IMG/VR virus record: IMGVR_UViG_3300010938_000006
Coordinates: 64,001 to 114,940 of that record
Reading direction: 5' to 3' (one strand)
Length of the DNA stretch: 50,940 nucleotides
DNA from: a virus
Below, piece after piece: positions 21,406 through 43,842 of this stretch. Below the pieces are notes generated by a model. The model saw nothing but the letters and a program-made list of their open reading frames with translations. It did not search any database and had not been told where the DNA came from. Position 1 is the stretch's first letter, and every line of letters starts with the position of its first letter. Both the position numbers and the translations under genes were made by a program.

Positions 21406-23399
21406 TGGCTTTAATTAGGAATTTAACATCTTCCCCTTTTACTTCTAATCAAATTAGTTTAAATTGGGACCAACCCTCAGGATTTGGGTCAAGTGACGAT
21501 GAAATTATCGTTACTAGGACTATTACTCATTTTCCTATGGAGTTGTATAATACATCATTTCCTAATAAGGCAACTGACTCTAGACCTATAGAAATATTCA
21601 GAGGAAGGGTTATAACGGGTTTAGACGCAGGTACTGTCTCAGTGTCAATGAGCACTTTAACAGATACTTCAGCGGCTTTTCCTACTAACCCTTCTCTCAA
21701 GGGTAGATTACTACGAGATCAAAATAGTCAGGTATTCAAAATTTTAAGTAATACCTCTACTAGTATTACAGTAGAAACAGGTACTCCTGCTGTTGGAAAA
21801 TATGTAGTTTTAGCAGATTTTCCTTCAGAAGTACGTATTCAACAAAATTTTGAATTGGATATTAGAACTACAGCAAACTATAATTCTATTTCAAATTTAG
21901 TGGAAAATGTTGGCGGCATCCTACAAATAGTTAACTTTGATGCCAACGAACTAGATAATTTAATCTTTAGAGATGGTGCTGGAACTAGATTTATCATAAA
22001 GAATAATAACAATAGTACTATAAACTTCTACGAAAATTTCAACTTTAGAAATGAAAATTTAGTAACATTTACTTATAACACAGTAACTGGAGTTATACAG
22101 TTTGACAGCGCTGTTGATTTGAGTAATGTTTCTGCAGGAGATATCTTTAAAGATACTTCTAATAATAAATACGTTATTCTTACTGTTAGTGATGCTATGG
22201 ATTTTATAACCATAGCGGTAAATAAAAATGTGGACACTACTGCTCCTACTTTAAGTGAACATGGAGCTATAGTTGCTCCTGAAGTTCCTGTAGTTGGTTC
22301 AGGTATGGCTATTTTTAATAGTTATACTAATAGTCAGTTAAAACCATATATTGATACTTATAAAACAGAAGCGGAAGCCTCCTCAAGAACTGGTTCTGGT
22401 TTATTAGATGACACTTTTTATTACTACACAGGATTTATTAAAAAAGTAGGAGTTAATGTTGCACAAGCAGATTACGCTACCTACGATAGTGCTAGTTCAA
22501 CTCAAACAGTAGCTTTAAGTTTAAGAAATCGTCAATTTGGAGATTTACTTTATTCTTTATGGCCAAGTTTACATAGAGAATTAGATACTACAGAAGATTT
22601 ATATGATTTAATGCAAGTATTTGGATTTCAAATGAGTGAGATCCATTCTTTGATTGAAACTTATAAATTACAAAATACACACACAGTCTTTACAAATGCT
22701 TTAGAAGCTCTAGCAGATCAAACTGGACTACCTTCAGTTAGTTATGCTATTGGAGCAGATACTCTACGAAGAATATCAAATGATATGATTTCGGCGTGGA
22801 AACTTAAAGGTTCTAAAGAAGGTATTGCGTTATTTATTAGAATTATTACTACATGGGATGTTACAAATGGTACGGGAGATTCCAGTGGATCTATTGAAGA
22901 CTTCCTACCAAATATTGAAGCTCTACGATTTTTTAGCGCTAGTTTGGGAAGTTTAAATACTAGAATAACTCAAACCAGCCCTTTTGTAACCGGAGGAAGA
23001 TTTGCTAGATCTTTACCAGGAGTAGTAATTCCAGGATTCTTTTCTTTTAGAGAATTCGTTATAACCATTCCAAATGTTGCTCTTTATATTGGAGAAAGCA
23101 CTGCTTATACAGTTTCAAGTGATACTACTACGATGACTGATAGTGCTGCCAATTTTGGAACAGATGATAGTTTAGTTGGAAATTTCTTATTGCCCAATCA
23201 AGAAGAAGTAAATGATCTTTTTGAAATTGTAGCAAATACGGCTACTACAATCACGGTAAAAGGCACTATCATTAATAGAACGATAGGCGGAAATTATGCC
23301 GTATTATCTCCGCTAAATGCAAATAGATTCATAATTTTGAACCGATTATTGCCAGGTTATATCCCAGTTAAAACTCGTGCTGGGTTCATATTTACCTAA
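21405..23399 (+). CDS. Tail protein I (gpI)-like baseplate protein
   Basis: 664 residues. The N-terminus is fibronectin-III-like (SSPFTSNQISLNWDQPSGFG), followed by beta-domains related to those in the gp6/J protein (about 75-135 and 215-278). The core (about 365-480; FGDLLYSLWPSLHRELDTTE, LADQTGLPSV, LKGSKEGIALFIRIITTW) is the gpI pattern, which links the wedge to the fibres. A third beta-domain lies near 565-635. The start overlaps the gp6/J stop (TAATG). Confidence 0.75.
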   Translation: MALIRNLTSSPFTSNQISLNWDQPSGFGSSDDEIIVTRTITHFPMELYNTSFPNKATDSRPIEIFRGRVITGLDAGTVSVSMSTLTDTSAAFPTNPSLKGRLLRDQNSQVFKILSNTSTSITVETGTPAVGKYVVLADFPSEVRIQQNFELDIRTTANYNSISNLVENVGGILQIVNFDANELDNLIFRDGAGTRFIIKNNNNSTINFYENFNFRNENLVTFTYNTVTGVIQFDSAVDLSNVSAGDIFKDTSNNKYVILTVSDAMDFITIAVNKNVDTTAPTLSEHGAIVAPEVPVVGSGMAIFNSYTNSQLKPYIDTYKTEAEASSRTGSGLLDDTFYYYTGFIKKVGVNVAQADYATYDSASSTQTVALSLRNRQFGDLLYSLWPSLHRELDTTEDLYDLMQVFGFQMSEIHSLIETYKLQNTHTVFTNALEALADQTGLPSVSYAIGADTLRRISNDMISAWKLKGSKEGIALFIRIITTWDVTNGTGDSSGSIEDFLPNIEALRFFSASLGSLNTRITQTSPFVTGGRFARSLPGVVIPGFFSFREFVITIPNVALYIGESTAYTVSSDTTTMTDSAANFGTDDSLVGNFLLPNQEEVNDLFEIVANTATTITVKGTIINRTIGGNYAVLSPLNANRFIILNRLLPGYIPVKTRAGFIFT

Positions 23400-23414: not shown

Positions 23415-25589
23415 ATGCTTAAGTTTAATACTATTCGTACCGCAAGATATCTACGAAGTCGATTCGTAGAGGGTAAATTCTTACTTGCGTCAGAAGGTAC
23501 TGACATTCAGCTTGAGATTATAGACTTACTTCGACGTACCATTAAATCAGATTTAGGTAATATCTTCATTGGGGACGCTTTTAAATTAGAACGTATTTCA
23601 GCTACACAAGTATTAGTAAGAAAAGGAGACGCTTGGTATGAAGGTCTTCCTTTTTCTATGCGTTCTAGTAAAGATGAACTAATTTCTGGCTCAGTTCTTA
23701 CTAACGGCATTTTACCTCCAGGAGTAACTATAACTGATTACTCTACTGGAGAAGGTAAGTTACTAACTTTTAGTATAGGTACTACTCCTGCCAATACGTA
23801 CAAAATAATCATAACTGCAAGTGAAGAAGCAGTTACTGATGTTCAAGATCCGTTTTTAAAGAATGTTACTATTACCGAGTCTACTGGCCAAAAGATTCGT
23901 TTAAACTACAAAATCAATGTAGTTTTAAATTCCATTCAAACCGAAACTCCTATTCCATATATGGGAGAAACTGGAGCTTATAACGCTGCCAATTTAATTA
24001 ATCAAGTTATGATTACTCCTACGGCTAGTGGAAATGGTGAATTGCTTGCTACCAATCTTATTGCTGGCTCAAGTATTGACGGTCGTGATTTAGAATTAGT
24101 TTTCAGAAATGATCCCGCTATTGGTGGTGGAAACCCCATGCCCATTACTACAGCACATCAAGAAGCTTTTTTTAATGGTAAGTTAATTGATAGTCGTGGC
24201 ACTGAGTATCATATTAATGCTATCTTTTTAGATGCAGATACTACTAAAACTGTTATTCGTATTGATAAAGAATTTGGTCAACCAGATCCTCAAATCATCA
24301 ATACTGTCCCTTTTTATATTAAGAAAAAGGATGTATATGTTGCTGATGATAGTTCTGGAGTGCCTAATGGATTCTTATTTCTACCTTTAGGAACAATTGA
24401 ATGGACTTCTAGTGGTATTACTCACAATTCTAAAGTAGTTGATAGTAGATCACGTATTGTTTTAGAAAAAGATTTTCAAAATATCTCTAATCAAAAATTT
24501 GATATTAAAGTTGTTTTAGGATCAGGAACAGTACGTTTTAATCAAAGTGGCAGCCCTTTAGCTTTAAATTGGACTGGACCTTTCCAATTAATTAATCCTC
24601 ATAGCTCTTTGATTCAAACTATTGCGTCAAATAATGTTCCAATGGTAGATCTAGGTTCATTAGCTTATGAAATGAATTTTTCTGGCGGAGCAATAGAACG
24701 TGGAAATCTTGCTGTTACAGTTTCTTCTGCTGGAGCTAATACAATTTTATCTGGATCTCCAGATTTATCTACAGTTAGATTAGGTAATGTTATTCAAGAC
24801 TCTGGCGGCAACGTAGCTGTTATAACAGCTATAAATGATATAACTGATACTTTAACTGTCAATCCTTCACTAGTATCTACAGGGGCAGCGGTAATTTATA
24901 AAGATTCTTTTGGTCCTGGTTACGTACCTTCAACCGAAAATACTTTTATTCTAGCTACTAGAAAAGGTAATTTCGTTTATGGGTCATTTCCTGTGGCCAC
25001 AACCGATTTTTCAAGCGATATACGTGGTATAGAAGCCGAACCTCTGCACGATAGAATAGGCACTTTAACTGATGTTATTGGTGATGAACAAGAAGATCGT
25101 TCATTATATATGCGTTCAGCCAACACTGTATCGTGGACTGGTGGAAACAGCTTTGTTTGGACAGCAGATATTCTAATTCAAATAATTAATACAAAAAGTG
25201 GTACTGTAACAGAACATTCAATACCTGCAGGTTCTTTTACCTTAATTGATGGTGAAAGTGTTTGGGTATCTATTAATAGAACCGCCGCATCAGAAGTTTT
25301 GACTTATAATAAGTCTTCGATCACTCCTATTCCTGCTCAATCACAAGCGAATAAAGATGTATTAGTTTTATTCCGTAGGGTAGGTTCTGATCTTCAAATC
25401 CCAATTTTAAAACAAATGATAGTGTCTCCTAATACAGCTTTTTACCTAGGAGCAGTAGCGGGTACGTCATTCGATCTAACGCAAATACTAACCTCATCAG
25501 AGCAAACCATGGTAATCAATGGAGTTGTTAGTAACGTTAAAACCGGCAGTGTTTTAATTAGTAATGACGGTAATATACTTTTAGCTTAA
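23415..25589 (+). CDS. Fibre-proximal baseplate/tail protein
   Basis: 724 residues, beta-rich. The N-terminal 100 residues (LKFNTIRTARYLRSRFVEGK) resemble proteins that attach fibres to the baseplate in large myoviruses. Residues about 430-492 contain the recurring beta-domain (ILSGSPDLSTVRLGNVIQDS), very like the one in the sheath. It lies between gpI and the fibre genes. No enzymatic motif is visible. Several CGT Arg codons in the first third suggest fair expression. Confidence 0.65.
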   Translation: MLKFNTIRTARYLRSRFVEGKFLLASEGTDIQLEIIDLLRRTIKSDLGNIFIGDAFKLERISATQVLVRKGDAWYEGLPFSMRSSKDELISGSVLTNGILPPGVTITDYSTGEGKLLTFSIGTTPANTYKIIITASEEAVTDVQDPFLKNVTITESTGQKIRLNYKINVVLNSIQTETPIPYMGETGAYNAANLINQVMITPTASGNGELLATNLIAGSSIDGRDLELVFRNDPAIGGGNPMPITTAHQEAFFNGKLIDSRGTEYHINAIFLDADTTKTVIRIDKEFGQPDPQIINTVPFYIKKKDVYVADDSSGVPNGFLFLPLGTIEWTSSGITHNSKVVDSRSRIVLEKDFQNISNQKFDIKVVLGSGTVRFNQSGSPLALNWTGPFQLINPHSSLIQTIASNNVPMVDLGSLAYEMNFSGGAIERGNLAVTVSSAGANTILSGSPDLSTVRLGNVIQDSGGNVAVITAINDITDTLTVNPSLVSTGAAVIYKDSFGPGYVPSTENTFILATRKGNFVYGSFPVATTDFSSDIRGIEAEPLHDRIGTLTDVIGDEQEDRSLYMRSANTVSWTGGNSFVWTADILIQIINTKSGTVTEHSIPAGSFTLIDGESVWVSINRTAASEVLTYNKSSITPIPAQSQANKDVLVLFRRVGSDLQIPILKQMIVSPNTAFYLGAVAGTSFDLTQILTSSEQTMVINGVVSNVKTGSVLISNDGNILLA

Positions 25590-38093: not shown

Positions 38094-38213
38094 TTATGTA
38101 TAGAATTCAGATACTTGCTCGCCACCACCATCTAAATACCAACCAATATAATTTTCCATCTCTTTTTTAGTATTAAATCGTAGTTCTAATTTAAAGTAAT
38201 GTTTGTTTTTCAT
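38094..38213 (-). CDS. 39-residue phage protein (GWYLDGGGE type)
   Basis: MKNKHYFKLELRFNTKKEME is followed by NYIGWYLDGGGEQVSEFYT. The GWYLDGGGE phrase is found in small phage proteins of unknown role. Start at 38213, stop TAA at 38096-38094. It overlaps the end of the frameshifted gene upstream by 23 bases. Confidence 0.6.
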   Translation of the reverse strand: MKNKHYFKLELRFNTKKEMENYIGWYLDGGGEQVSEFYT

Positions 38214-38465
38214 GATCCCAATGCCTTCCATCATAAAACTCAAATCCTAAACCAAATTCAGAATTATAAATTCAATTGTAATGCCTGGATGGTCACATTT
38301 TCTATTGATATAAGTGTTAAAAGATAAACTAAAATTAAATTTATGGTAAAAATTGATTTCTAATGTTTTGTACTTTGTAAAAGAAAAGCATATACTTGAA
38401 CGATGTTTGCCGCTAGTATTAAAACTAGCCCACAAGTTCTTTGTTAGGGTTATCTTCTTGCGCAT
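38191..38465 (-). pseudogene. Frameshifted small phage gene (CDHPGI ... FYDGRHWD type)
   Basis: The ATG at 38465, with TTGGAG before it, opens a frame overlapping the thyX end by 41 bases and reads TKYKTLEINFYHKFNFSLSF and CDHPGITIEFI. Then the frame must move by -1 between 38271 and 38259 to read EFGLGFEFYDGRHWDHEKQ and stop at 38191. The two parts together match a small phage family with CDHxG and FYDxRHWDxE. No canonical slippery site is present, so it is either broken, a base is missing, or the call is an assembly error. Function unknown. Confidence 0.6.
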
Positions 38466-39099
38466 TAGTCCACTCCAATGCTTTAGCAATTGTTGGAAAT
38501 TCTTGAATAAAAATCTCTTTTGCACGTAAAGCAATATCTCTATGTTCTTTTTGAGTTCCTACTTCTGACCGTAGGTTAATATAATGAATCCAATCTCTTA
38601 GTGTACCGTGCATATATACCTTGGTCCCAGTACTCATAGGTAATAGAAACCTGGCACATTCTTTAGCTATACCTTTATCGGTAGCTTCATAATAGAGTTT
38701 ATAAGCTAATTGGGTAACTTGTTCTTGGGCTCCTAAAAACCAATCATTAAGATCATCAGACAAATCATTAACACTATTTTGACGATTCTTTTCGTCTTGT
38801 CTACGAGCCTCATAATACTCAAAATCTTGAGAATCTACTTTACTGTATCGTTGACTAAATTCTTGAAAATGAAAAGAACGATGACGGATAATTTGAGCAG
38901 ATATAGCTCTAGAGGTTCTAATTTCTAAACACATGGTAGCCATTTCAAAAGGACTCCAGTGTTTATGAGTAATAAGATACTTTAACAATCTATCTTTATC
39001 GGGATTATCTTGATTAGGACTAGATACTCTAGCCATGTATACAATAAGCTTTTCAGCTTTTTCAGTACGATGGATTAAGTTGACGTGCGCTTCATTCAC
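38425..39099 (-). CDS. thyX: FAD-dependent thymidylate synthase
   Basis: 224 residues from GTG 39099. It has the ThyX motif RHR-x7-S (residues 72-82; [15 protein letters not shown]), an N-terminal [14 protein letters not shown]-like region and [16 protein letters not shown] before the motif. It makes dTMP from dUMP with methylene-tetrahydrofolate and FADH2. The start overlaps the end of the preceding small ORF by eight bases; no ATG is available in this frame. It works with the RNR and dNMP kinase of the same operon to supply thymidine nucleotides. Confidence 0.93.
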
Positions 39100-39328
39100 G
39101 ATATAAAATTTCTGTTATAGATAAATCTTTTACTTTTACTACTAATCCATCGCCTATAATATGATCAGTAATTGTTGCTAATCTTGTTACGATCATGCAA
39201 TTACAAAAGGGCCTTTCTGGTTCGCTTTTTGGATTTAGTAGACTCTAAACCTTTTCTGTTTTGTAGAAATCAAATATTTGTTTGCATCTAATACAAATAT
39301 ATCTTGAATTAAGATCTATTTCATCCAT
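39092..39328 (-). pseudogene. Zinc-ribbon small gene with in-frame TAG
   Basis: From ATG 39328 the frame reads MDEIDLNSRYICIRCKQIFD, FYKTEKV, TAG (39247-39245), then SLLNPKSEPERPFCNCMIVT and 29 more residues to TGA at 39094-39092. CIRC lies before and CNC after the stop, so the two halves of one zinc ribbon are split by the TAG. Without it the product has 78 residues. Only the downstream part (from ATG 39196, 34 residues) could be made separately. It overlaps the thyX start. Read-through, mutation or sequence error are all possible. Confidence 0.6.
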
Positions 39329-39532
39329 ACAACAAATTACAAATAGATGAATCTACGTAGTCATCATTAGTATCTAAAAAAAAGCGAATGTTGTATCTAT
39401 TGAATATCTATCGTCTATTACTATAAGACCTGAACAACTTTTACACAGTTTAGTTGTGTTCCAATTATATTCAAATCCTTGGCTATTAGGAGAATAATGG
39501 TAAAAGAACTTACTTTGACACTTTTTGCAGGT
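39321..39532 (-). pseudogene. Disrupted zinc-ribbon gene with frame change at an 8-base run
   Basis: An open frame inside and after the kinase 3' end reads TCKKCQSKFFYHYSPNSQGF, LCKSCSGLIVIDDRYSID, TTFAFF and then TAG. A -1 step at the run of eight T (39383-39376 on the - strand, in phase T TTT TTT) continues as LDTNDDYVDSSICNLLYG to TGA at 39323-39321, overlapping the next gene by eight bases. No start codon remains upstream (TGA at 39535-39533). It looks like a decayed gene; the phase of the T run would also suit -1 frameshifting. Confidence 0.5.
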
Positions 39533-40232
39533 TCAATGTCTTAAGTATTCCGTCGATTTTACCATACAATTCTTCCAGCGTTCCTTTATTATCTATAGTA
39601 TAGCTGAATCCCTCATATCCGTCAAGATCACGTTCGGAAGGATCTGTAGAATTCGCTGAATTAAATCGGTTAATACGAATGGTTACGATATTTTTGAGGG
39701 TTTTTTTAAGCCCTTCGATTTCGCTACGATAACGAAGGTCAGGGATAACGAAACGATTAGTGATGTGCGGCTGACTATCAAATCGAATAAATTGAGAAGC
39801 CGCATTAATCCAAAAATCAGGAGTAACAACTCTATTAGTACTGCCCTTTAGAATAGCTAGTGAACGAGGGCAATGATAAAGTTGTTCTTGAGTATAATTT
39901 CCAGCAGTTCCAAATAAACCTACAAAGTTGCTCTCTCCAGTGTAGGTATAGCTGTCGGGATGTTTACCAGCAGCATTTACAAACTCCTTAAAAAGGAATT
40001 CGCAGAGATTACGGGTAAAGGCATCTTTGGGTTGAATAGGATATTTCTTAATTGCTGATTCTTTAAATTCAGGATTATCAAAATGAGTGCGTTCAATCTC
40101 GTATTCAATTGAGGCAGAATCCTTAAGAGGATCAGCAAAGCTAACTCGGGTAAATCCATATTGATTTACCAAATGTTCAGCAATAGTGTCTTTACCAGAA
40201 CGTTTATAACCAGATATAGCAATAACTTTCAT
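39510..40232 (-). CDS. Deoxynucleoside monophosphate kinase
   Basis: 240 residues from ATG 40232. A P-loop (GYKRSGKDT, residues 8-16) and the later VIPDLRYRSEIEGLKK match the T4 gp1-type dNMP kinases, which phosphorylate dNMPs to dNDPs. The ATG overlaps the TAA of the 57-residue gene (TAATG), which decides the start over one four codons upstream. Its 3' end overlaps a disrupted zinc-ribbon frame. With thyX and the RNR it forms the DNA-precursor set. Confidence 0.85.
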   Translation of the reverse strand: MKVIAISGYKRSGKDTIAEHLVNQYGFTRVSFADPLKDSASIEYEIERTHFDNPEFKESAIKKYPIQPKDAFTRNLCEFLFKEFVNAAGKHPDSYTYTGESNFVGLFGTAGNYTQEQLYHCPRSLAILKGSTNRVVTPDFWINAASQFIRFDSQPHITNRFVIPDLRYRSEIEGLKKTLKNIVTIRINRFNSANSTDPSERDLDGYEGFSYTIDNKGTLEELYGKIDGILKTLNLQKVSK

Positions 40233-40405
40233 TAAAATACCCATCCTATAAATACGTTATAAGAATGAGTGAGGATTTGGGCTAAGATTACGCCCACAGC
40301 CACCACAATGATATCAACAGTCGTATAAATACTAAAAAGTTTCTTTTTGTAGGTAGTACGAGTGCGCTTATTTGGAAATTTTAAAATATCAGCTATTCTT
40401 TCCAT
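40232..40405 (-). CDS. 57-residue membrane protein
   Basis: A basic N-terminus (FPNKRTRTTYKKKLF) precedes one membrane segment (about 26-45, TTVDIIVVAVGVILAQIL). Positive-inside topology puts the N-terminus in the cytoplasm. AAAGG ribosome site. Overlaps the kinase start by one base and the previous frame by 17 bases. Role unknown. Confidence 0.65.
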   Translation of the reverse strand: MERIADILKFPNKRTRTTYKKKLFSIYTTVDIIVVAVGVILAQILTHSYNVFIGWVF

Positions 40406-40614
40406 TTTTCTTAACCTTTCTTAATTTTGACCAATCCATTTGCTTTTTAATAATTCTACTTTGACGTACTTTCAATTGTACTATACCGCATTGTTTCCAG
40501 CAAGTTCTTTTTTTTCTTAAGAGATTTAACTGATGGATATACATGGAGAATACACTCTTCCATTTCATAATCCCAGTCTACTCCGTAAACATAAACTTTT
40601 ACTTTTTTGTTCAT
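40389..40614 (-). pseudogene. Small gene with frame change at a run of eight A
   Basis: From ATG 40614 (TAATG with the previous stop) the frame reads MNKKVKVYVYGVDWDYEMEE, CILHVYPSVKSLKKKK and then runs into a poor tail to TAG at 40456. Skipping one base of the A8 run (40515-40508) gives RTCWKQCGIVQLKVRQSRII and KKQMDWSKLRKVKKNGKNS to TGA at 40389, a coherent 74-residue protein that reaches the next gene as all neighbours do. So the A run is probably one base too long, either truly or in the sequence. Confidence 0.55.
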
Positions 40615-40841
40615 TAGTAAGGAGATTTTACCGCACTAGATTCATTATTGCCGTAAGAACCGTCTAAAAGGCAACGTTTCTTTTCTTCTAAAGCAGACAT
40701 TTCATTATACTTTTGACTAATCGCTTTATCTAAATCAGCAGTAACTTTACGACGCTTGTCTTCAAGTTCAGTAAGTTCTTTACGAAGTTCTAGCAATTGA
40801 TCAATGATTTTAATAGCTTCTTTTTTAGTATTAGCATCCAT
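40614..40841 (-). CDS. 75-residue coiled-coil protein
   Basis: A single long helix (IIDQLLELRKELTELEDKRR, then ISQKYNEMSALEEKKRC) with heptad pattern. AAAGGA ribosome site directly at the previous stop. Unknown function; may dimerise or act as an adaptor. Confidence 0.65.
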   Translation of the reverse strand: MDANTKKEAIKIIDQLLELRKELTELEDKRRKVTADLDKAISQKYNEMSALEEKKRCLLDGSYGNNESSAVKSPY

Positions 40842-40844
40842 TTT

Positions 40845-41297
40845 CTATCCTTTAAGATTTACTGTTTTAGTACAGGGACAATTTTTATGATGTTCTTCTC
40901 TGTATATAAGATCGACACAAGCTTTAATAATTTCTTTACCTAAATCTTCGGCTCCCTTTTTACCAAATTTACACGCATCACTAATAGCAGGAATATCGTG
41001 CGAGAATACAACTTCTGCTATATTCTTTACACTATCTTTAAAATTATTGTGAAGAAAAGTATCAGTACCTTTAGGCGTTCTAAAATGCGCCACAAACATT
41101 CCTGAAGAATCTTCTCGATCAATGCCAAAAGAATAATCAGGATTATCACAAAGTCTATCATGTGCTTTAACCATCAACTCTACAGTCAATCTACGGTCTA
41201 AGTCACTGAGTTTATTAAGTTCTTCTGGAAGTGAATCACACCAGGCATAACAATCACCTTTACAAGGTTCATACTTAAATCTGAATAATTTCCGCAT
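40845..41297 (-). CDS. Conserved-looking Cys-rich protein, unknown
   Basis: 150 residues. The start MRKLFRFKYEPCKGDCYAWC has three spaced cysteines (12, 16, 20) and the end has CPC, so a metal site is possible. The middle (VKAHDRLCDNPDYSFGIDRE, FVAHFRTPKGTDTFL) looks strongly conserved, as in a phage family of unknown role. AGGAG ribosome site. It lies between peptide deformylase and the coiled-coil gene. Confidence 0.65.
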   Translation of the reverse strand: MRKLFRFKYEPCKGDCYAWCDSLPEELNKLSDLDRRLTVELMVKAHDRLCDNPDYSFGIDREDSSGMFVAHFRTPKGTDTFLHNNFKDSVKNIAEVVFSHDIPAISDACKFGKKGAEDLGKEIIKACVDLIYREEHHKNCPCTKTVNLKG

Positions 41298-41305
41298 CTT
41301 AACTC

Positions 41306-41800
41306 CTATTTAATACCTAGTAATTTATAAGCCATTCTGCGATTTTGTCTATTGGTCTTCTCTAAATAAGACTTTCCATCTAAGTGTTCCATTTCATGGA
41401 GTCCACAACGAGCTTCAATGTCTATAAGAACCCCTCTAAAAGGCTCTCCTTTGCGATTAAAGGCGTCTACAATCACTTTTTCTGGTCTAGATATGGGTAC
41501 GTATACTCCAGGAGTACTAAGGCAGCCTTCTTGGTCCATTTGAAGGTTATCATCCACTTTAACTATAGTAGGATTGATAAATTCCACAATACTACTTTCA
41601 ACCTTACCCTGTTCCTGCATTATAAAGACTCTTTTATCAGACCCAACTTGATTTGCGCTAATTCCAATTCCATTACATCTTACCATAATGTCCTTCATGG
41701 CGTCAAGTAATTCATATAATTCTTCATTAAATTCAGTAACTTCCACGCAAGGTTTATTAAGAGCAGGATTAGGAAAATACACTAATTGATATTTATTCAT
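41306..41800 (-). CDS. def: Peptide deformylase
   Basis: 164 residues with all three motifs: GIGISANQ (44-51), EGCLS (91-95, metal ligand Cys93) and HEMEH (135-139, ligands His135 and His139, catalytic Glu136). It removes the formyl group from new proteins. Phage copies known from marine myoviruses are short at the C-terminus, like this one, and are thought to speed maturation of phage or host photosystem/membrane proteins. Start overlaps the previous gene by eight bases; AAAGAG ribosome site lies inside that gene. Confidence 0.93.
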   Translation of the reverse strand: MNKYQLVYFPNPALNKPCVEVTEFNEELYELLDAMKDIMVRCNGIGISANQVGSDKRVFIMQEQGKVESSIVEFINPTIVKVDDNLQMDQEGCLSTPGVYVPISRPEKVIVDAFNRKGEPFRGVLIDIEARCGLHEMEHLDGKSYLEKTNRQNRRMAYKLLGIK

Positions 41801-42041
41801 GATAAAGACTCTTTTGCAAAGTAGTTTCTTGAAGTAATTCGTAAAACTTTTCTAATTTTTGATATACTAAAGGATTAGTAATATCATATAGTTCCGTTTT
41901 GTAAGAAGCTTCAGTAGGAGAAATAGACAATTTATTTAGATGATATAATTCTCCATCTTTTTGAAGACCCTTTTCATACCAATCATATGATATAAGGTCC
42001 ATTAATTCTGCAAATGTATTAATTTTATATCTTTTCATCAT
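41793..42041 (-). CDS. 82-residue protein, unknown
   Basis: Mostly helical, aromatic-rich, acidic-neutral: YKINTFAELMDLISYDWYEK near the start and YQKLEKFYELLQET near the end. Two ATGs in a row (42041, 42038) are possible starts. It overlaps both the deformylase start and the end of the RHH-like gene. No family recognised. Confidence 0.6.
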   Translation of the reverse strand: MMKRYKINTFAELMDLISYDWYEKGLQKDGELYHLNKLSISPTEASYKTELYDITNPLVYQKLEKFYELLQETTLQKSLYHE

Positions 42042-42222
42042 TTAAACTTTGGTCTTTTAAAGCTTGTTCGTAAGCTGTCTTAATACCTAAAACTAAAAAA
42101 TATTTAGCAGCTTTTGAAGGTTTGCCCTTAAAATTAGGATCATATTTGGTAAACTAACTGAATAGATCTTCTACTTCTTTTGGTATAGTAAGGCTTACCT
42201 TATTAGATTTACTTTTTGTCAT
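42025..42222 (-). pseudogene. Ribbon-helix-helix-like gene with in-frame TAG
   Basis: From ATG 42222 the frame reads MTKSKSNKVSLTIPKEVEDL, FS, TAG (42156-42154), then FTKYDPNFKGKPSKAAKYFL and VLGIKTAYEQALKDQ to TAA at 42027-42025. KVSLTIPKEVEDL followed by a PSKAAKYFLVLGI helix is the RHH (Arc/CopG) pattern, typical of small DNA-binding regulators. The TAG falls in the first helix. Without it the protein has 65 residues. Start and end overlap both neighbours, as for intact genes here. Confidence 0.65.
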
Positions 42223-42547
42223 AAAGAGAGTTTACCATAATATTGTCTTTAAGCCAAATCTTTTTACCGTGACCATTGTCAACTAGTTTAAAATTAAGCT
42301 TTTTATATTTCCACGTCAACTCTACTACTTTATGAAAAAAGTATTTATAGTCTGGCACATCTAAAGGTGAACCATCTATCCAATAAATTGATATTAATTC
42401 TCTTTGTCCAAAATCTTCTTTGACTTTCTCAAATACATCTTTAATTCGATCAAAAAATTCTAATTCAGAACAGGTTTCATGACTATCACATGAAGGACAA
42501 TCTAAATAATAAGACCATAGAGTTATGTATTTATATAGTTTACGCAT
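42209..42547 (-). CDS. 112-residue protein, unknown
   Basis: Start at ATG 42547, sharing TAATG with the previous stop; a TTG two codons upstream is less likely. MRKLYKYITLWSYYLDCPSC leads to HETC, a possible metal cluster (three Cys within about 12 residues). The rest is mixed helix/strand, with FKLVDNGHGKKIWLKD near the end. Not recognised. Confidence 0.65.
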   Translation of the reverse strand: MRKLYKYITLWSYYLDCPSCDSHETCSELEFFDRIKDVFEKVKEDFGQRELISIYWIDGSPLDVPDYKYFFHKVVELTWKYKKLNFKLVDNGHGKKIWLKDNIMVNSLYDKK

Positions 42548-42999
42548 TACCAAAAAAGTAAATCGCTAAGGTTGTTGTCGGTGTGTATTTTTAGTTTGAA
42601 TTGAATGTAATCTTGAACTGGAAAGGGCAGTACTGCTTTAGTATTGTCCATAGTATGGCCACTAAGATGTCCGTATTCTAAATCTAAAAAATGAAATACA
42701 TGAACACCCACTTGAAATGAGTACTCGATGTATCTGAATTGGCCACCACCATAAGTTGGACTATTGTCTGTAATACTAAGTATTTGATTGTTAAAATAAA
42801 GATAGGATAGTTCTGTGTTAATGATTACGCCTAATCTATAGCTTAGATGTCTATCTGGTAAACCGTTTTCGGTTATATAAGCAAACCTTGGTTCTTTAGT
42901 ATAAGCTCCACCAAATATCGTCAATTCTTTTAGAGTTAGGAGTTTGGCGGCACTAGTATTTGGTAGAATCAAAGCTAGTAATAACAGTAATTTTAGCAT
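42547..42999 (-). CDS. Exported beta-rich protein, unknown
   Basis: 150 residues with a clear signal peptide (MLKLLLLLALILPNTSAAK, cleavage after Ala near 18). The mature part is beta-rich with FRYIEYSFQVGVHVF, then LEYGHLSGHTMDNT and VQDYIQFKLKIHT. The H-x-S-x-H pattern and alternating strands suggest a periplasmic or outer-membrane protein; a PagL-like or other barrel is only a guess. Envelope modification or superinfection exclusion is possible. Confidence 0.6.
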   Translation of the reverse strand: MLKLLLLLALILPNTSAAKLLTLKELTIFGGAYTKEPRFAYITENGLPDRHLSYRLGVIINTELSYLYFNNQILSITDNSPTYGGGQFRYIEYSFQVGVHVFHFLDLEYGHLSGHTMDNTKAVLPFPVQDYIQFKLKIHTDNNLSDLLFW

Positions 43000-43325
43000 T
43001 GCTCATCTTTCATTAGAACTTCAATAGGAAATTTACGAATATTGATTCCTAGAGTTTGAGCCATAGCTACTTCTTGTTTCATACCAGAAGTTTCAGGTCC
43101 AAATACCCAAATCTCATCACATACCTTAAGATATTGAATACCAACAGAAATACCTAAAGCTCGTTGATGTTCATTATTATCATCAAGGCCAATAAAGGGA
43201 AGATATAGATGAGGGGCATAAGGAGCATAACCCATATCAATAGCCATTAGGCAAGCCTTTTTAGTACGACGAACATTGCCTTCAATATCACCACGAAATG
43301 GAGAACAAACAAATACTCGTTTCAT
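42993..43325 (-). CDS. Nucleoside deoxyribosyltransferase-fold protein (DUF4406-like)
   Basis: 110 residues from ATG 43325 (AAGGA eight bases before). RVFVCSPFRGDIEGNVRRTK, GYAPYAPHLYLPFIGLDDNN and EIWVFGPETSGMKQEVAMAQ are the family motifs. The fold binds nucleotides; most phage members have no proven activity but may act in nucleotide salvage or NAD/nucleotide metabolism. It ends inside the start of the exported-protein gene. Confidence 0.75.
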   Translation of the reverse strand: MKRVFVCSPFRGDIEGNVRRTKKACLMAIDMGYAPYAPHLYLPFIGLDDNNEHQRALGISVGIQYLKVCDEIWVFGPETSGMKQEVAMAQTLGINIRKFPIEVLMKDEQC

Positions 43326-43326
43326 A

Positions 43327-43542
43327 TTATTCATCCTTATCGTTATTGTTTATAAATTCTAGCAAATCATTCAAATTCTTAATATCTTTAAGTATACAAT
43401 AATATTTAGATTCTAACTTTTCTTTTAAAGTGTAAACAATATTGCCTACAGCATAATTTCCAGATATTTAGGCTTTATATGGCCCTTCATTGGTGTGTCT
43501 ATACGCTTTGTATAAAGCTTCTTCTATGATGGAATGTTTCAT
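43327..43542 (-). pseudogene. Small gene with in-frame TAA
   Basis: From ATG 43542: MKHSIIEEALYKAYRHTNEG, PYKA, TAA (43470-43468), then ISGNYAVGNIVYTLKEKLES and KYYCILKDIKNLNDLLEFI to TAA at 43329-43327. Without the stop the product has 71 residues and ends two bases before the next gene, like its neighbours. No family recognised. Mutation from CAA is the simplest explanation. Confidence 0.6.
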
Positions 43543-43545
43543 ACA

Positions 43546-43842
43546 TTATTTTTCTTCTGGACAAGTTACTTTTAAAGAATATACTCTTTCTACAGTATCA
43601 AACAATCCATCTGTAGACATTGTGTATGCATTTTTATACTCTAACTACCAAGTATATAAATATTTCTTTTTGCCTACATTTTCTATTTTGATTACAGTAG
43701 GTTTAAAGTTCGTTACTTCCCATATTTCAGAGTTTTAGTCGACGGTATCGGAATAACACTCTCCTACTTGTCTTAGAGATTTTGTAGTAGTATTAGTACA
43801 TCCTACAATAAATAAAACACTTAGAATCAGTAGTTTATTCAT
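43546..43842 (-). pseudogene. Lipoprotein gene with in-frame TAA and TAG
   Basis: From ATG 43842 (TAATG with the SLOG stop): MNKLLILSVLFIVGCTNTTT, a signal peptide with lipobox IVGC (Cys15), then TAA at 43737-43735 after TVD, NSEIWEVTNFKPTVIKIENV, TAG at 43647-43645 after YLYTW, and LEYKNAYTMSTDGLFDTVER to TAA at 43548-43546. Apart from the two stops it is a normal 97-residue lipoprotein. The ORF on the other strand is its shadow. If translated only to the first stop it gives a 35-residue lipopeptide. Confidence 0.65.

Follow-up and report, generated by a model that had tools for sequence, protein, structure and literature searches.

Single stop codons or frame slips within the coherent frames of dispensable genes, with intact homologues elsewhere, characterize prokaryotic pseudogenes as presented in two studies (PMC522871, PMC11078800). 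In-frame TAG codons also occur in the frames of code 15 phages (TAG to Gln), such as phAss-1 (PMC10607447) and crAss-like phages (PMC9523058); phAss-1 has TAG within 41 ORFs, most of which are virion genes, and encodes three suppressor tRNAs (PMC10607447). A third class of described systems comprises transcriptional slippage and dnaX-type programmed frameshifting at runs of A.

The phage locus considered here shares with the first class the form of its lesions, but these are concentrated on one contig whose stop density is about 20 times that of other viral contigs. A search of one literature collection for dense pseudogenes in phages turned up no paper, and what we describe is most likely a known kind of event, gene decay, at an unusual density.

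Results

The window is a stretch of 50,940 nucleotides, corresponding to bases 64,001-114,940 of a 114,940-base IMG/VR record of an uncultured bacterial virus; coordinates below zero denote the part of the record to the left of the window. Because the contig encodes tail sheath, tail tube, baseplate wedge and tape measure genes, it belongs to a contractile-tailed phage; its late module lies on the plus strand, and its early arm contains well over 100 small genes of narrow distribution. Relatives reached through the terminase include G001, with a near-identical late module, and the divergent contigs G011, G012, G013 and G002 (terminase 73-78% identical in amino acids).

All seven small genes examined between 38.2 and 43.8 kb form coherent minus-strand frames broken by a total of five in-frame stops (three TAG, two TAA) and three frame changes (Table 1), as the preliminary description had proposed. 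Both ends of the read-through frames keep the tight start/stop overlaps with intact neighbors that had been reported, and the long neighbors that had been called clean (thyX, the kinase, the deformylase and the ribonucleotide reductase) do have unbroken frames. The breaks, which had been placed within 5.6 kb, are in fact spread through the early arm, where a frame model finds at least eight more stop-split genes beyond the window.

Table 1. Broken genes and intact neighbors on the contig, in window coordinates
Feature	Position	Strand	Lesion	Evidence
Broken small gene downstream of thyX	38191-38465	minus	frame change near 38257	homology across break
thyX	38425-39099	minus	intact	PHROG thymidylate synthase, 1.3e-66
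Small cysteine-containing gene	39092-39328	minus	in-frame TAG 39245-39247	frame and overlaps
Zinc-ribbon-like small gene (CxxC...CxxC)	39321-39565	minus	frame change, 8-base run 39376-39383	
Deoxynucleoside monophosphate kinase	39510-40244	minus	intact	PHROG 7e-39; homologues in G011, G012, G013
Broken small gene	40389-40614	minus	frame change in 8-base A run (plus-strand T 40508-40515)	
Peptide deformylase	41306-41800	minus	intact	PHROG 5e-35
65-codon gene, ribbon-helix-helix regulator by eye	42025-42222	minus	in-frame TAG 42154-42156	
Nucleoside 2-deoxyribosyltransferase-like gene	42993-43334	minus	intact	PHROG 3e-23
71-codon gene, orphan	43327-43542	minus	in-frame TAA 43468-43470	
98-codon lipoprotein-like gene (signal with LFIVGC), orphan	43546-43842	minus	in-frame TAA 43735-43737 and TAG 43645-43647	
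Ribonucleotide reductase, 962 aa	44243-47131	minus	intact	PHROG 1e-129, match in two stretches (intein-like insert)
Macro-domain gene	-51161 to -50703		TAA inside domain	PHROG match 2-136, E=1e-19; Mx1 macro protein 2-129
HNH gene	-35385 to -34840		TGA	
TAA-split gene	-26200		TAA	uninterrupted homologue in relatives
Gene with Gln-rich context	-24586 to -24098		two TAA	
Small HNH_2 gene	-23900 to -23709		TAA	
Prepilin-like gene	-17244 to -16627		TAA	
Stop-split orphans	-51779, -36352, -34291, -25290		stop	frame model

Coding frames extend beyond the breaks at 42025, 43327, 43546 and 39092 more than chance would allow. The downstream halves of these genes are coding-like when compared with their off-frame counterparts (tail probabilities of 0.0016 for 42025, 0.009 for 43327, 0.03 and 0.002 for the two breaks of 43546, and 0.025 for 39092), and the probability that they stay open after shuffling is similarly low (0.01, 0.0035, 0.04 and 0.017, and 0.004, in the same order). 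The weakest of the seven is 39321-39532: only 18 codons follow its break, and it lacks an in-frame start unless read-through extends to a further TGA at 39533-39535, in which case an ATG at 39565 is a possible start. By eye, the 42025 protein resembles a ribbon-helix-helix regulator, but it gave no family match and the structure model of its read-through form gave no fold match; that model has helices at residues 15-27 and 37-64, and the stop, at residue 23, lies either at the end of the first helix or in the interval that separates the two. The structure model for 43327 was of poor quality.

Homology provides the strongest evidence for the breaks. The joined product of 38191-38465 aligns across its break with an uninterrupted frame in a relative (G013:29365-29709; 40% identity over 70 aa, E=3e-11), and that of 40389-40614 does so with uninterrupted frames in two (G011:81033-81317, E=1e-8; G013:28787-29137, E=5e-4), such that both frame changes are confirmed at the level of sequence homology. 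The preliminary description had named a lack of counterparts for the downstream halves in related phages as a result that would count against it; where the comparison was possible, its outcome left the proposal standing. Together with the TAA-split gene at -26200, three broken genes thus have uninterrupted versions in G011 and G013, and the macro-domain and HNH genes also have uninterrupted homologues elsewhere. In the macro-domain gene, the Pfam and PHROG matches, and likewise the Mx1 homologue, extend across the TAA; at the site of the HNH gene's TGA, Trp is found in two homologues and other residues in two more. Searches with 39092, 39321, 42025, 43327 and 43546 (39321 less widely than the others) found no usable homologue, including none among phages for 39092-39328.

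To gauge how unusual such breaks are, we scanned blindly for frames with a model that permits skipping of stops at a cost, its codon model having been trained on the contig and its relatives; a first version was dropped because errors served as cheap gene joins. At one threshold the scan made 12 stop calls on the contig, of which 11 are credible: a stop at -41003, called as splitting a 541-aa gene, was rejected as lying between two adjacent genes. The 11 credible stops in 115 kb compare with three in 583 kb of 38 other IMG/VR viral contigs, most of them GC-richer than this one (about 20-fold, p=5e-7), and with five calls, some of them false, in about 410 kb of relatives of similar composition (p=8e-5). 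A stricter threshold left eight stops here (seven without the false call) and none in the 583 kb. Blind frame-change calls, from a noisy detector, showed no excess (8 per 115 kb here vs. 41 per 583 kb in the controls), and therefore only the density of in-frame stops is statistically anomalous. To that extent the pattern is as unusually dense as had been suspected.

The stops are also unevenly placed. Genes with no homologue in the relatives, a status that depends on how divergent those relatives are, account for 33% of codons but hold 10 of the 11 credible stops (p=1e-4), and the late module, with 15,557 codons (43% of the total), holds none (p=0.002). This distribution is the footprint of selection.

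Discussion

The explanation that we consider probable is that these are recently inactivated accessory genes, broken by nonsense and slip mutations under weak selection and present at high density. Accessory-gene decay was also the reading favored at the outset, and it is now supported by the control contigs, the orphan location of the stops, their avoidance of the late module and the uninterrupted copies in relatives; the mixture of lesion types (TAG, TAA and TGA stops, and frame changes both in homopolymers and elsewhere) argues for it as well. Under such a process, many small early-arm genes of this lineage would each have gained a nonsense mutation or a frame slip, and these mutations would have escaped purging because the genes are of little import in the present host or setting. 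The breaks look recent, since the downstream halves retain coding character and most of the broken genes carry one break. Their number may stem from a population bottleneck or from a recent move of the lineage to another host or habitat. We infer that the phage itself carries the breaks, that it no longer makes the products and that relaxed selection accounts for the pattern. Several points run counter to this explanation: most of the broken genes are orphans, whose joined frames are therefore not backed by an intact counterpart; the blind frame-change calls do not exceed those in the controls; the searches found no close strain over the region, which leaves a small probability of errors or population variants; and the density is unexpected for a compact phage genome.

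A possible, though unlikely, alternative is that the stops and indels are consensus or assembly errors absent from the real genome. Two of the three frame changes in the window sit in 8-base A/T runs, and the early arm has no second independent assembly among the contigs searched: G001 covers none of the broken genes, searches of viral contigs with the kinase, the ribonucleotide reductase and a 763-aa early gene found no near-identical strain over the broken region, and a DNA-level search of INPHARED for such a strain gave no match, nor did genome contigs contain a terminase relative. If error were uniform, however, it should strike conserved and late genes according to their length, and the breaks avoid conserved genes, for which reason uniform error is disfavored. 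Intact genes of at least 100 aa contain 26 homopolymers (A/T of 7 or more, G/C of 6 or more), three being A/T runs of 8. Substitutions that create stops are, moreover, not a usual fault of finished assemblies, and G001, which represents the late module only, matches the contig over 41.6 kb without a substitution, the differences being a 52-bp deletion and a scaffold gap. (The 52 bp missing from G001 lie at contig 58953-59004, window -5047 to -4996, immediately beyond the end of a 618-aa gene.) Systematic error is likewise disfavored.

There is a small chance that not all of the seven are broken genes and that some are instead ordinary small ORFs in their own right, or gaps without coding function. 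The segment 39092-39196 contains an ATG of its own, the case for 39321 is weak, the first part of 38191 has no codon-usage signal, and the call at -41003 demonstrates that the same method can mistake two adjacent genes for one. But homology spans the break in both 38191 and 40389, and the method yields only zero to three stop calls, depending on threshold, in the 583 kb of other contigs.

About as improbable is that full proteins are made after all, through tolerated or regulated read-through (e.g., by a host ochre-type suppressor) or through transcriptional slippage at A8/T8. What is securely in excess is indeed stops, for the most part TAA and TAG, and the sequence downstream of them retains coding character; since, given the codon usage, about 27% of random nonsense mutations should yield TGA, the shortage of TGA lends mild support: none of the 11 in the stricter stop set is TGA, with a probability of about 0.03 that is no longer significant once the TGA candidates in the HNH gene and at 39533-39535 are included. 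These two candidates also weigh against read-through, as does the single credible tRNA of the contig (L083:1720-1792, minus strand, contig 21720-21792), which has a CAT anticodon and a CCA end; no suppressor tRNA was found on the contig, which may be incomplete. With intact copies present in relatives as plain uninterrupted frames, programmed read-through is unlikely.

Each premature TAA or TAG is one C-to-T step from a Gln codon, as had been noted, but this holds for any TAA or TAG (from CAA or CAG) and is uninformative about mutational or recoding bias. The breaks share no common context and belong to several lesion classes. A T directly after the stop codon generally makes for strong termination, and TT follows four of the five TAG breaks (window 42154, 43645, -36187 and -34084), with TAGTTT occurring three times; noticed post hoc, this may point to a mutational context. 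At true gene ends the usage of TAA, TAG and TGA is unremarkable, and read-through, if efficient, would also permit stops in long genes, where there are none.

In-frame TAG is shared with the code 15 phages, among them phAss-1 and crAss-like phages, but, unlike in phAss-1, the virion genes here are clean, the stops include TAA and probably TGA along with TAG, and the contig supplies no suppressor tRNA. In stop-recoded genomes, in-frame stops are expected across long and structural genes, of which the late module has no instance. The A8/T8 frame changes recall slippage and dnaX-type frameshifting, but a -1 step on A AAA AAG at the A8 run enters a frame with stops and not the homologous one, and relatives keep the gene in one frame, with no break, where a programmed site would be retained. 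Also improbable is that the stops disable the early accessory genes only in part: the host, or its state early in infection, would translate TAA and TAG as sense often enough to be useful, with the small early genes serving as conditional read-through products and the core staying clean.

To return to gene decay: if the breaks are real, the contig captures a phage lineage in the course of shedding its accessory set, with an unusually high load of fresh pseudogenes, and it offers a natural test of dispensability among early genes. As a caution, gene callers will report the fragments of such broken genes as new small proteins.

Two further observations concern other parts of these genomes. Runs of C11 and G10 occur at window -14400 and -13693, in a gene-poor stretch of this AT-rich genome. 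In the relative G013, at 25127 and 25166, the end of a tail-fibre gene is repeated with two in-frame TAA codons and resembles a fibre remnant.
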